A stretch of DNA of 43,003 nucleotides. Source: a virus. The stretch lies in the IMG/VR virus record IMGVR_UViG_3300030104_000070, positions 1 through 43,003 of that record, one strand, 5' to 3'. Under the pieces are notes generated by a model. It was not told the DNA's origin. It did not search any database and saw only the letters and a list, made by a program, of their open reading frames with translations. Made by a program: the position numbers and the translations under genes. Numbering within the stretch: the first letter of the stretch is position 1; the number at the start of each line of letters is the position of its first letter. Positions 20,813 to 24,717 of this stretch are shown one piece after another.

Positions 20813-21280
20813 ATGAGTTTTAGATTAAGTCAGAGATCGTTGGATAGACTTGAAGGAGTACATCCAGATATGACTGCAGTAGTTGAGAGAGCTATTCAAC
20901 TGACAGAGGTAGACTTCGGAGTAACTCAAGGGGTTAGAACCTTAGATGAGCAAAAGGCTAACGTAGCTGCAGGAAGATCACAAACCATGAGGTCTAAACA
21001 CCTACTGCAAGAGGATGGATTCAGTCATGCTGTAGACGTAGTAGCGTATGTAGGCCCAGATGTGTCATGGGAACTAAACTTGTATGATGATATATGTGAC
21101 GCATTTAAAAAGGCTGCAGAAGAAGTAGGTTGCAGTATAAAATGGGGAGCAGCTTGGAGTGAAGGTGATATAAGAACCTATCCAGGAACTTCAGAAGATG
21201 CTATGATGGCTTATGTAGACTTACGTAGGTCACAAGGTCGTAGACCTTTTATAGATGCACCTCACTTTGAGTTGATGTAA
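20813..21280 (+). CDS. Endolysin, M15-family peptidase (L-Ala-D-Glu or D-Ala-D-Ala type)
   Basis: The 155-aa protein cuts peptidoglycan cross-links or stem peptides at lysis. The M15 zinc signature is present: SKH (His63), SHAVD (His72, Asp75) and DAPHFEL (His151), with WGAAW (111-115) and AYVDLRRSQGRRPF as in phage M15 endopeptidases. Asp75 and His151 plus one upstream His are the likely zinc ligands. In most phage relatives the first His is followed closely by GHAVD; here a five-residue insert (QEDGF) separates His63 from SHAVD. There is no signal peptide, so a holin is needed for access. TAGGAGCATAGA precedes ATG 20813. Confidence 0.87.
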   Translation: MSFRLSQRSLDRLEGVHPDMTAVVERAIQLTEVDFGVTQGVRTLDEQKANVAAGRSQTMRSKHLLQEDGFSHAVDVVAYVGPDVSWELNLYDDICDAFKKAAEEVGCSIKWGAAWSEGDIRTYPGTSEDAMMAYVDLRRSQGRRPFIDAPHFELM

Positions 21281-21836: not shown

Positions 21837-22312
21837 TGGACCCAGTAAGTTGTGTTATGATGGCATCAGGTGCTTTCAAAGCATTGAAGGGTGCAATCGG
21901 TGCAGGTAAAGACTTGCAAGATATGACAGGTCAGCTTGCCAACTGGGGTAAAGCTTTCTCTGACTTTACTAATTTAGAGGAAAGAGAAAAGAACCCCCCT
22001 TGGTGGAAGCAGACGTTTAAAGGCAGTGACGAAGAGACTGCTCTAGAGATATTCGCTAACAAGAAGAAGATGGAACAGATGAGGGCTGAAATAAAAGACC
22101 ACATCTCTTGGAACTATGGACCTAGTGCATGGGAGGAAGTCTTACAGATTGAAGCTAAAATGCGTAGACAAAGAAAAGAAGAACTCTACAAGAAACAGGA
22201 GAGAGTAGATGCGATTATTAATTTCGGTATTGGTGGTGTTATTTTTATCCTTGGGGGCGGCTTGCTTCTATTGGTATTCTACTTCATCGGTAAACAACAA
22301 GGTAGATGGTGA
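21836..22312 (+). CDS. Hypothetical protein with C-terminal membrane anchor
   Basis: A 158-aa protein with a Gly/Ala-rich N-terminal helix (residues 10-40), a charged central part (EEREKNPPWWKQTFKGSDEE, KKKMEQMRAEIKDHISW) and a C-terminal membrane span (about 131-152, FGIGGVIFILGGGLLLLVFY). Proteins with the PPWWK motif and C-terminal anchor recur next to lysis genes in marine podoviruses without a known role. It starts in the previous stop (TAATG), and its stop TGA overlaps the next ATG. Confidence 0.55.
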   Translation: MDPVSCVMMASGAFKALKGAIGAGKDLQDMTGQLANWGKAFSDFTNLEEREKNPPWWKQTFKGSDEETALEIFANKKKMEQMRAEIKDHISWNYGPSAWEEVLQIEAKMRRQRKEELYKKQERVDAIINFGIGGVIFILGGGLLLLVFYFIGKQQGRW

Positions 22313-22485
22313 TGTGGTTTCTGGTGTGGATGCAGTTCCTAGTGGGGGAGAATGAGTTCGAGTACTACCAAGTGGGTACTTACGGATCAGAAGAAGCCTG
22401 TAAAGAAGAGATGGTAAGAGCAAGAGTAATGGTAACGAATAGCAAGTCAGCGGTACATTGCTTTGAGGTTGATAGAAATAAATAA
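22312..22485 (+). CDS. Small exported-looking Cys-pair protein (57 aa)
   Basis: A frame too short for usual gene calling: ATG 22312 lies in the TGATG overlap with the upstream gene. The product has a short hydrophobic start (MWFLVWMQFLV), then YGSEEACKEEM with Cys30 and a second Cys50 (HCFEVD). The same pattern, short hydrophobic N-terminus, [ST]-x2-x-C-x3-M and a Cys 20-28 residues later, is seen in the proteins at 23807 and 29049. Function unknown; a disulphide-stabilised periplasmic peptide is a reasonable inference. Confidence 0.6.
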   Translation: MWFLVWMQFLVGENEFEYYQVGTYGSEEACKEEMVRARVMVTNSKSAVHCFEVDRNK

Positions 22486-22588: not shown

Positions 22589-22826
22589 TGATTGGAAAAT
22601 TATACCAAGGTTGATGATGTTGGCTGTAACTATACTGACATATCAGGCAGTGCATTGGTTTATGGGCTTACCTGATCCATCTGTTGCACAGAGTGGTCTT
22701 GTATCTGTTTGTATGGGTGCTCTGACAGGATGTTTTGGTATATGGATGGGCAAAGAATCTAAAACAACAGTAACTCCAACAAGGGTAATACATGAGGAAT
22801 CTTATAGTAAGCCTGATTCTAGGTAG
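22569..22826 (+). CDS. Holin-like membrane protein
   Basis: An 85-aa protein from ATG 22569 with two hydrophobic helices: about residues 11-30 (IPRLMMLAVTILTYQAVHWF) and 40-60 (SGLVSVCMGALTGCFGIWMG), separated by LPDPS, and a basic/polar tail. The first segment with its flanking IDDWK is characteristic of small holin-like proteins of marine podoviruses. Holins make the inner-membrane lesion that releases the M15 endolysin. ATG 22557 would add four residues; GAGGGG lies only 2 bp before 22569, so the exact start is uncertain. It overlaps the downstream lipoprotein gene by 35 bp. Confidence 0.65.
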   Translation: MAHTVIDDWKIIPRLMMLAVTILTYQAVHWFMGLPDPSVAQSGLVSVCMGALTGCFGIWMGKESKTTVTPTRVIHEESYSKPDSR

Positions 22827-23178
22827 CCTGTTAGCAGGTTGCATGTTGAATCCTATGAAACTACTTGGAGGTGGGGGTGGCCCTAGTGTCAATGCTAATG
22901 TGCAAGCAGGGAAGACAAACTCACAGACAGTAGGTAATTCTACAAACACAGACCAGGAGGTTAGCCTACAGAATCTTGAAGGGAATTTGAATCAAAGTAA
23001 TGATAAGAATAAAGTAAGTACCGATAGTGTGGAAAACATAAATATAAACGAGATTCCACCTTGGGTATTGATACTTCTAGTGCTAGGTTGGTTAGCACCT
23101 AGTCCACAAGAAATGGGACGTGGTTTACTCACTCTTATAGCAACACTAAGGGGAAAGAAAGATGGCAGCGCGGCTTAA
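22792..23178 (+). CDS. Lipoprotein with C-terminal membrane span (u-spanin-like)
   Basis: A 128-aa protein with a signal peptide and lipobox LLAGC (lipidated Cys17), a Gly-rich then Asn/Gln/Ser/Thr-rich linker (25-85), and a C-terminal hydrophobic stretch (about 89-102, PPWVLILLVLGWLAP). An outer-membrane lipid anchor plus a C-terminal inner-membrane segment is the architecture of unimolecular spanins, which fuse the two membranes in the last lysis step. The start is nested inside the holin-like gene, as spanin genes often overlap lysis genes. The role is inferred from topology and position; the TM is short and ends in Pro, so it is not certain. Confidence 0.6.
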   Translation: MRNLIVSLILGSLLAGCMLNPMKLLGGGGGPSVNANVQAGKTNSQTVGNSTNTDQEVSLQNLEGNLNQSNDKNKVSTDSVENININEIPPWVLILLVLGWLAPSPQEMGRGLLTLIATLRGKKDGSAA

Positions 23179-23413
23179 AAAGTCAAAGATGAAATGCAAT
23201 AAGCCTAGAGCTACGCCTAATCATCCTAGTAAATCACACGTAGTAAAGGCATGTTCAAATGGAAAAGAAAAGGTTATCAGGTTTGGTCAGAAAGGTGTCA
23301 GAGGAAGCCCTAAAGGTTCAGCTAGGAATAAAGCTTTTCGTGCAAGACATGCTAAGAATATTAAAAAGGGAAAGATGAGCGCAGCGTATTGGGCTGCTAA
23401 AGTAAAATGGTAA
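23162..23413 (+). CDS. Small basic protein, widespread phage family of unknown function
   Basis: An 83-aa, Lys/Arg-rich protein with two Cys (KSKMKCNKPRATPNHPSKSH, VVKACSNGKEKVIRFGQKG) and the C-terminal signature ARHAKNIKKGKMSAAYWAAK. This arrangement is common to small proteins in many marine phages and has no assigned function. It overlaps the upstream lipoprotein by 17 bp and is the first of four similar basic genes ending at 24681. The charge suggests nucleic-acid binding, but that is inference. Confidence 0.7.
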   Translation: MAARLKKSKMKCNKPRATPNHPSKSHVVKACSNGKEKVIRFGQKGVRGSPKGSARNKAFRARHAKNIKKGKMSAAYWAAKVKW

Positions 23414-23426
23414 AAGGATAAATACA

Positions 23427-23807
23427 ATGAAGACAATAACTATTAGTATAGTAGCGGTAATGGGCTTTCTTGCGATAGCAGCAACTAAAGCAGCATCTAT
23501 GGATTTCTCTGTAGCAGGACAAACACTATCTATTGGTGCAGATACTGACATCAACTACACTACTGGTGTAGAAGAATGGGTATGGGAATTAACACCATCT
23601 GCAGGAGTAACTGCATTAGGTATTGGTTTAAGTGTAGCCACCGACATTGACATGTTGACTCTTGACGAGGGAGACATCTTCCAAGGTCTAGACTTTACTG
23701 CAGACTACGAAGTATCTAATACTAATATCAATCTATATACAGAAGTTTCAACAGATGCAGACCTAGAGTTTGGTGACGTAACTGTAGGGGCTAGGTTTAG
23801 CTTCTGA
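23427..23807 (+). CDS. Secreted, outer-membrane beta-barrel-like protein
   Basis: A 126-aa protein with a Sec signal peptide (MKTITISIVAVMGFLAIAA, likely cleavage near ATKA-A). The mature part is acidic with alternating strands (TLSIGADTDINYTT, GLDFTADYEVSNTNINLYTE) and ends DVTVGARFSF, a terminal aromatic of the type recognised by the BAM machinery. This suggests a small outer-membrane or periplasmic barrel-like protein. In a lytic phage it could alter the envelope late in infection (exclusion, receptor masking, lysis aid); none of this is demonstrated. AAAAGGATAAATACA precedes ATG 23427. Its stop TGA overlaps the next ATG (TGATG). Confidence 0.65.
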   Translation: MKTITISIVAVMGFLAIAATKAASMDFSVAGQTLSIGADTDINYTTGVEEWVWELTPSAGVTALGIGLSVATDIDMLTLDEGDIFQGLDFTADYEVSNTNINLYTEVSTDADLEFGDVTVGARFSF

Positions 23808-23998
23808 TGTGGTTAGCTGTAGTAATGTTTTGTATGTCACCTACCGATTCAACAACGTGTACTCTGACAGTCAACAATGAAAACCTATACAGAACTAGAG
23901 AAGAATGTCGTACAGATATGCGTAATATGGTAGATATGTTTATTTCAGGAGGTGTCTTTTCACAAGGTACGTGTGTAGAAATAGGAGTTTCAACATGA
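23807..23998 (+). CDS. Small exported-looking Cys-pair protein (63 aa)
   Basis: Starts in the TGATG overlap with the barrel-like protein. Short hydrophobic N-terminus (MWLAVVMFCM), then YRTREECRTDM with Cys34, and GTCVEI with Cys56. It shares the pattern of the proteins at 22312 and 29049; Cys9 and Cys18 are additional. No known domain recognised. Coupling to a secreted protein suggests that the two act in the same compartment. Confidence 0.6.
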   Translation: MWLAVVMFCMSPTDSTTCTLTVNNENLYRTREECRTDMRNMVDMFISGGVFSQGTCVEIGVST

Positions 23999-24093
23999 AA
24001 ATAGTAAAGTGGTTATGGAGATATTTAAAAAGAATAGGGTGTGCAATCTTAAATAAGAATTGTGGTCCTGACTGTAACTGTAAGGTAGGTTAG
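23995..24093 (+). CDS. Tiny Cys-rich peptide (32 aa)
   Basis: ATG 23995 overlaps the previous stop (ATGA). The N-terminal half is basic and aromatic (MKIVKWLWRYLKRIG); the C-terminal half has four Cys (C16, C23, C27, C29 in CAILNKNCGPDCNCKVG). The amphipathic helix plus Cys cluster looks like a membrane-binding peptide or a small metal site. Overlap-coupled packing supports expression. No function assigned. Confidence 0.5.
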   Translation: MKIVKWLWRYLKRIGCAILNKNCGPDCNCKVG

Positions 24094-24684: not shown

Positions 24685-24717
24685 AAACCCCCTTGGATTT
24701 CTCCTTGGGGGTTTTTT
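24685..24717. terminator. Bidirectional terminator between convergent blocks
   Basis: Inverted repeat AAACCCCC (24685-24692) / GGGGGTTT (24707-24714), with inner GG/CC pairs and T residues to 24717. Reading rightward it ends in TTTTTT after the hairpin; read leftward, the A-rich flank AAATAAA gives a weaker T tail. It lies in the 38-bp gap between convergent genes ending at 24681 and 24720, so it can end both transcripts. Confidence 0.88.

Follow-up and report, generated by a model that had tools for sequence, protein, structure and literature searches.

A 43,003-base virus record (the window throughout) carries, at 23427..23807, a gene for a 126-residue outer-membrane-type protein, here called mini-OMP. 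The gene is optional in its phages, and it forms part of an envelope-facing module that is common to phages with unrelated packaging genes, as synteny and sequence identity show. The protein is probably an outer-membrane protein. Our preferred reading, to which we give an even chance, is that mini-OMP is a phage-specific accessory mini-barrel of the outer membrane, carried as optional cargo of a late-type operon, that would remodel the host surface late in infection.

The window belongs to a Cobavirinae-like roseophage. Its portal is 86.4% identical to that of Roseobacter phage CRP-4 (Zobellviridae, Cobavirinae, Veravirus), and it also encodes a family A DNA polymerase, a DnaB-type helicase, a B12-type ribonucleotide reductase and a cytosine methylase. 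As originally predicted, the mini-OMP gene follows the lysis genes, which comprise an M15-type endolysin (20813..21280; phrog_465, E 7.8e-54) and a spanin2-family protein (22792..23178; 92.7 bits, cut-off 80). The gene for a small basic protein (phrog_7595; 23162..23413) lies directly 5′ of mini-OMP and forms the left border of the optional gene. On the other side lie the genes for an exported-looking 63-aa Cys protein (23807..23998) and a cationic Cys-rich micropeptide of 32 aa (23995..24093; MKIVKWLWRYLKRIGCAILNKNCGPDCNCKVG), and a terminator-like hairpin with a T run (24690..24711) stands 3′ of the cassette. All these features are on the plus strand. A promoter scan was uninformative, returning 6 candidates in the window and 12.6 in shuffles.

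Mini-OMP consists of a hydrophobic leader of about 24 residues, MKTITISIVAVMGFLAIAATKAAS, and a beta-rich body of about 102 mature residues that ends in ...DVTVGARFSF. The leader looks like a signal peptide on inspection and passes a crude script filter, in line with the original prediction, which had also proposed beta strands and a BAM-style C-terminus. Both of these held. The BAM beta-signal has the pattern polar-x-Gly-x-x-hydrophobic-x-aromatic, represented in mini-OMP by TVGARFSF, and a C-terminal Phe together with this pattern was found in all 104 distinct proteins of the family, that of the window counted. The strands alternate polar and hydrophobic residues, with an alternation score, calculated on strands taken from the AlphaFold model, of 1.84 versus 0.74±0.20 in strand-wise shuffles (equalled by 0 of 5,000); they are thus amphipathic far beyond the shuffled controls. 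The mature window protein contains 19 D/E versus 1 K/R, giving a strongly negative net charge. The whole window protein, leader included, is devoid of Cys, and none of the 104 proteins has a Cys beyond residue 22. Several unlike leaders sit atop almost identical mature parts (L001-L098), as if swapped as modules.

Four protein scans of IMG/VR revealed 149 loci with mini-OMP relatives (two of them, L073 and L099, being one contig), in at least three phage backgrounds. The gene is complete in 139 of these; with the window added, they yield the 104 distinct proteins, whose identity to the window protein ranges from 88% down to 41%. Fifteen positions are invariant in 76 aligned members: Y44, T46, G47, P57, G65, D75, F85, G87, D89, Y94, Y104, F115, G116, G121 and F126. 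No relatives turned up when three different members were run by tblastn against 50,697 phage records, nor in bacteria (two scans of GTDB species genomes), and a bacterial origin was rejected on the latter result. Searching solved structures with the mini-OMP sequence gave merely chance-level matches to DNA primase, and nothing exceeded the cut-off in PHROGs, Pfam or NCBIfam. Phenol_MetA_deg, matched by 3 of the 76 members (best E 0.0022), was discarded as too weak, and a Lom/Ail-type Pfam profile was absent from the 12 families that the 76 members matched at E 5. The open-access literature searched contained no description of the mini-OMP family, or of outer-membrane or barrel proteins in roseophages. 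Median dN/dS was 0.099 for mature mini-OMP and 0.476 for its leader, the most variable part (66 distinct genes), 0.285 for the Cys protein (63 distinct genes) and 0.150 for the micropeptide (51 distinct genes); all three act as real genes.

The AlphaFold2 model of the window protein (76 sequences; pLDDT 80.2, pTM 0.65) contains seven strands, at residues 23-29, 32-45, 50-63, 66-75, 85-95, 101-109 and 115-124. That of a 47% identical relative, L107 (51 sequences; pLDDT 74.8, pTM 0.59), has seven in the same order. Since the first strand of the L107 model comprises four residues only, a six-strand reading is possible. To our knowledge, the smallest natural monomeric outer-membrane barrels have 8 strands; mini-OMP, with seven in both models, or six without the short first one, falls below that number and could be an oligomer. 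The predicted fold is barrel-like, in line with the barrel that had been proposed; at 6-7 strands it may or may not close as a monomer.

Structural comparison points to outer-membrane barrels, with modest scores. The top VIA-align matches (Z 9 to 8, a best Z of 7-8 being usual for models without a clear match) were mostly outer-membrane barrels: designed TMB10 (Z 9.1, rmsd 3.0, 98 aligned) and KdgM (Z 8.3, rmsd 3.0, 98 aligned) for the window model, LptDE (Z 9.3, rmsd 6.6) and Omp33 (Z 9.1, rmsd 3.3, 97 aligned) for that of L107. Candidates were those of Foldseek's own list, so folds outside it may match as well, and unrelated folds also appeared, namely 4r03 (Z 7.2) and CapZ (Z 6.5) for the window and 4ytx (Z 7.6) and Rv2717c (Z 7.2) for L107. 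KdgM, NanC, OmpG and a Rhodopseudomonas porin, among the best structural alignments, share with mini-OMP an amphipathic strand meander and a BAM-type C-terminus. Such porins have 12 or more strands, against 6-7 in mini-OMP, and identity to the porins and barrels was 3-18% among the matches listed. Besides these unrelated folds and modest Z scores, an outer-membrane mini-barrel has against it a strand number below eight, the lack of a significant Foldseek match to either model (for the window, best E 0.14 in PDB and 0.073 in BFVD), and a lipobox-like LAAC in the leader of one distant member (L125, 1387-1761), unlike the other members. In BFVD, both models had D6PG85 and D6PH08 among their top three; D6PH08 bears the name 'Cyanophage outer membrane protein-like beta-barrel'.

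The nearest analogue is PF24653 (Phage_OMP; DUF680/PhCOG173, phrog_417) of cyanophages such as P-SSM4, where DUF680 is equated with PF24653 on the annotations of P-SSM4 and S-SSM5. Like mini-OMP, PF24653 proteins are phage-specific and beta-rich, with a leader, about 100 mature residues and a C-terminal Gly-x-x-aromatic-x-Phe, and proteins of this type are its structural neighbours in both BFVD searches. They differ from mini-OMP in their hosts and in their gene neighbours, which are glycosyltransferases, hli, nrdC and psbA instead of a lysis cassette, and no sequence relation was detectable. The PF24653 profile did not match the window protein, matched one of 76 relatives at E 0.096, short of the cut-off, and, at E 10, hit none of 19 records besides P-SSM4; hhalign of PF24653 members with the mini-OMP family gave a probability of 4.3 over 34 C-terminal columns only, both alignments being shallow. 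With the P-SSM4 member as query, tblastn hit 416 phage records, nearly all cyanophages and some podovirus-like. Comparable proteins, equal in size and layout, are thus frequent enough to overturn the original view that such a protein is unusual in a lytic podovirus. Small outer-membrane-like proteins of marine phages are common in the sea, and we know of none with a proven function. Mini-OMP adds a testable case, its function being directly accessible because there are natural knock-outs, a compact three-gene unit and culturable roseophage relatives.

The cyanophage analogue suggests another role. DUF680 can be dispensed with in at least one host; it has been linked to limiting phosphate and became disrupted in nutrient-replete passage (PMC6224464). 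A channel role has been suggested for this phosphate-linked protein, and a further source lists it within a cyanophage gene cluster (PMC3037559). Mini-OMP, alone or as an oligomer, might likewise be a pore or channel that lets cations or a nutrient through the outer membrane during infection, and its strongly negative charge and alternating strands would suit that function. However, its strands are few for a wide pore and it resembles DUF680 in layout only, given the hhalign result; we regard a channel as unlikely.

The mini-OMP gene is coupled to the genes that follow it. Its TGA overlaps the ATG of the Cys gene as TGATG, confirming the coupling first noted, and a T[AG]ATG junction is kept in 81 of the 82 members of the close group (the window and 81 complete loci), as TAATG in 62 and TGATG in 19; the remaining one is cut by a contig end. 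The TGA of the Cys gene in turn overlaps the ATG of the micropeptide ORF (ATGA, 23995-23998), a junction found in 73 of 81 cases in the close group; this ORF stood in the ORF list solely with a longer GTG start. The neighbour, initially described as a Cys-pair protein, has four invariant Cys (C9, C18, C34 and C56). It was also taken to form a two-protein unit with mini-OMP, a view that has to be given up. The two are not a private pair, since the Cys protein also occurs without mini-OMP (CRP-4, CRP-5, L332 and L347), gene order varies and a third coupled gene follows. In HMO-2011-type relatives the Cys gene is 5′, not 3′, of mini-OMP; distant loci often show the Cys gene, a 9-nt gap and then mini-OMP, and in 34 of the 57 distant loci with enough sequence mini-OMP is immediately preceded by a small ORF containing three or more Cys. 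Two small exported-looking proteins of the form 'MW...EEC/EAC...C', encoded at 22306-22485 and 23807-23998 in the same late operon, probably constitute one family; they have relatives in CRP-4 and CRP-5.

The micropeptide belongs to a separate, widespread phage family. Its members are cationic, 24-32 aa long, conform approximately to Y-[LF]-K-R-[LI]-x-C-A-x-x-N-x-[KN]-C-x(2,3)-C-x-C and have purine-rich ribosome sites; the window peptide is rich in Trp as well as Cys. They occur in the window, in 124 of the 149 mini-OMP loci and in L205-L385, and among the matches listed a valid peptide was present in 186 of 189 loci examined and missing from 3. A tblastn search of phage records gave no match, a 32-aa query being insensitive. 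A constant association with mini-OMP was rejected: with at least 1.5 kb upstream required, the peptide stands without mini-OMP at at least 81 of 134 decidable loci and with it at at least 53, at least 52 more being undecided for short flanks, and the contigs of these loci overlap the earlier mini-OMP set. Replacement by another outer-membrane protein found no support: a leader-plus-beta-signal ORF was found at 0 of the 81 loci, with a crude filter that recovers only 24 of 36 positives.

Empty sites show directly that mini-OMP can be absent. L332 and L347, whose aligning pieces between about 20.6 and 25.0 kb match the window at 85-98% identity, have a clean empty site: TAAAAGGATAAATACAATG, which in the window comprises the end of the basic gene and the start of mini-OMP, runs there directly into a Cys gene, one belonging to the other Cys clade. 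In L384 (about 2706-2789), mini-OMP is cut down to a 27-codon leader-like ORF that keeps the TAATG into the Cys gene. CRP-4 has adjacent basic and Cys genes, with neither mini-OMP nor micropeptide, and a pattern search for mini-OMP-like or peptide-like ORFs was negative in the whole of CRP-4 and in parts of CRP-810, CRP-13, CRP-9, CRP-5, CRP-212 and SIO1.

The backgrounds in which mini-OMP is found are diverse. An HMO-2011-type TerL, like that of L107 (80% identical to TerL of the HMO-2011-type phage CRP-13), is present in 92 of the 149 loci, window-type structural and/or reductase genes in 18, and a T4-type DnaB helicase in 9, two of which also have UvsX; 30 loci are without any background marker. 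L013, with an HMO-2011-type TerL, shares with the window a mini-OMP of 85% and an M15 endolysin of 88% identity, and the values for L051 are 73% and 95%, respectively. The envelope-facing cassette is therefore common to phages whose packaging genes are unrelated.

These comparisons bear on a possible lysis function. The place of mini-OMP near the M15 endolysin and spanin2, and the Trp- and Cys-rich cationic peptide in the coupled unit, would fit a lysis helper that acts alongside the spanin, destabilising the outer membrane jointly with the Cys protein and the micropeptide. Yet the window already encodes a spanin2-family protein, the micropeptide often occurs without mini-OMP (81 of the 134 decidable loci, among the matches listed), and the close relatives L332, L347 and L384 keep the same endolysin, spanin and peptide but lack mini-OMP, which disfavours a lysis role; we judge it improbable. 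Equally doubtful is a beta protein that is soluble in the periplasm or associated with the virion and not integral to the outer membrane, which the odd, low strand number, the moderate model confidence and the mass-spectrometric detection of a DUF680 protein in the S-SZBM1 structural proteome (PMC9146016) would favour, but against which stand the strict beta-signal and strand alternation, best structural matches that are mostly outer-membrane barrels, and the description of DUF680 as non-structural in S-TIM4 (PMC6224464).

An accessory mini-barrel acting at the host surface would work as follows. Mini-OMP would leave the cytoplasm through the Sec system of its host, and BAM, guided by the C-terminal beta-signal, would then place it in the outer membrane. 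There, the models predict with modest confidence, it would form a very acidic meander of 6-7 strands, either as an unusually small barrel or as the subunit of an oligomer. Its gene shares an envelope-facing module with those for the endolysin, the Cys protein and the cationic micropeptide. The resulting change of the surface late in infection might then prevent competing phages or new progeny from binding to the cell or its debris. That mini-OMP alters the infected cell's surface against superinfection or re-adsorption is the leading idea of its function, a conjecture that we hold tentatively, by analogy with Llp of T5 and Cor of T1, N15 and phi80. These are described (PMC9586334; PMC13164509) as superinfection-exclusion lipoproteins acting at the host outer membrane, and the shared role would be that of a phage protein placed there against further adsorption. 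In contrast to these lipoproteins, the window protein lacks any Cys and hence a lipobox Cys. There is, moreover, no link from mini-OMP to a receptor, and its gene lies among late-type genes, whereas exclusion proteins are described as early-expressed (PMC9586334). The cor cassette of T1 ST32 contains a gene annotated 'outer membrane protein' (L386 6608-6913), which was rejected as a homologue, its product having neither a signal-like start nor similarity; without such a start, the annotation looks doubtful.

A bolder version, which we consider rather unlikely, is that mini-OMP represents the smallest outer-membrane beta-barrels in nature (∼97-102 residues in 6-7 strands), a class that would close solely as an oligomer, and that it evolved in phages and is traded between unrelated roseophages within the envelope cassette, where together with the Cys-rich exported protein and the cationic micropeptide it remodels the host surface. 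If the small size proves true, it would bear on the minimum strand number of an outer-membrane barrel. Roseophage CRP-810 carries a gene annotated as 'OmpA family protein' (L199 4191-4946) 5′ of its lysozyme gene.
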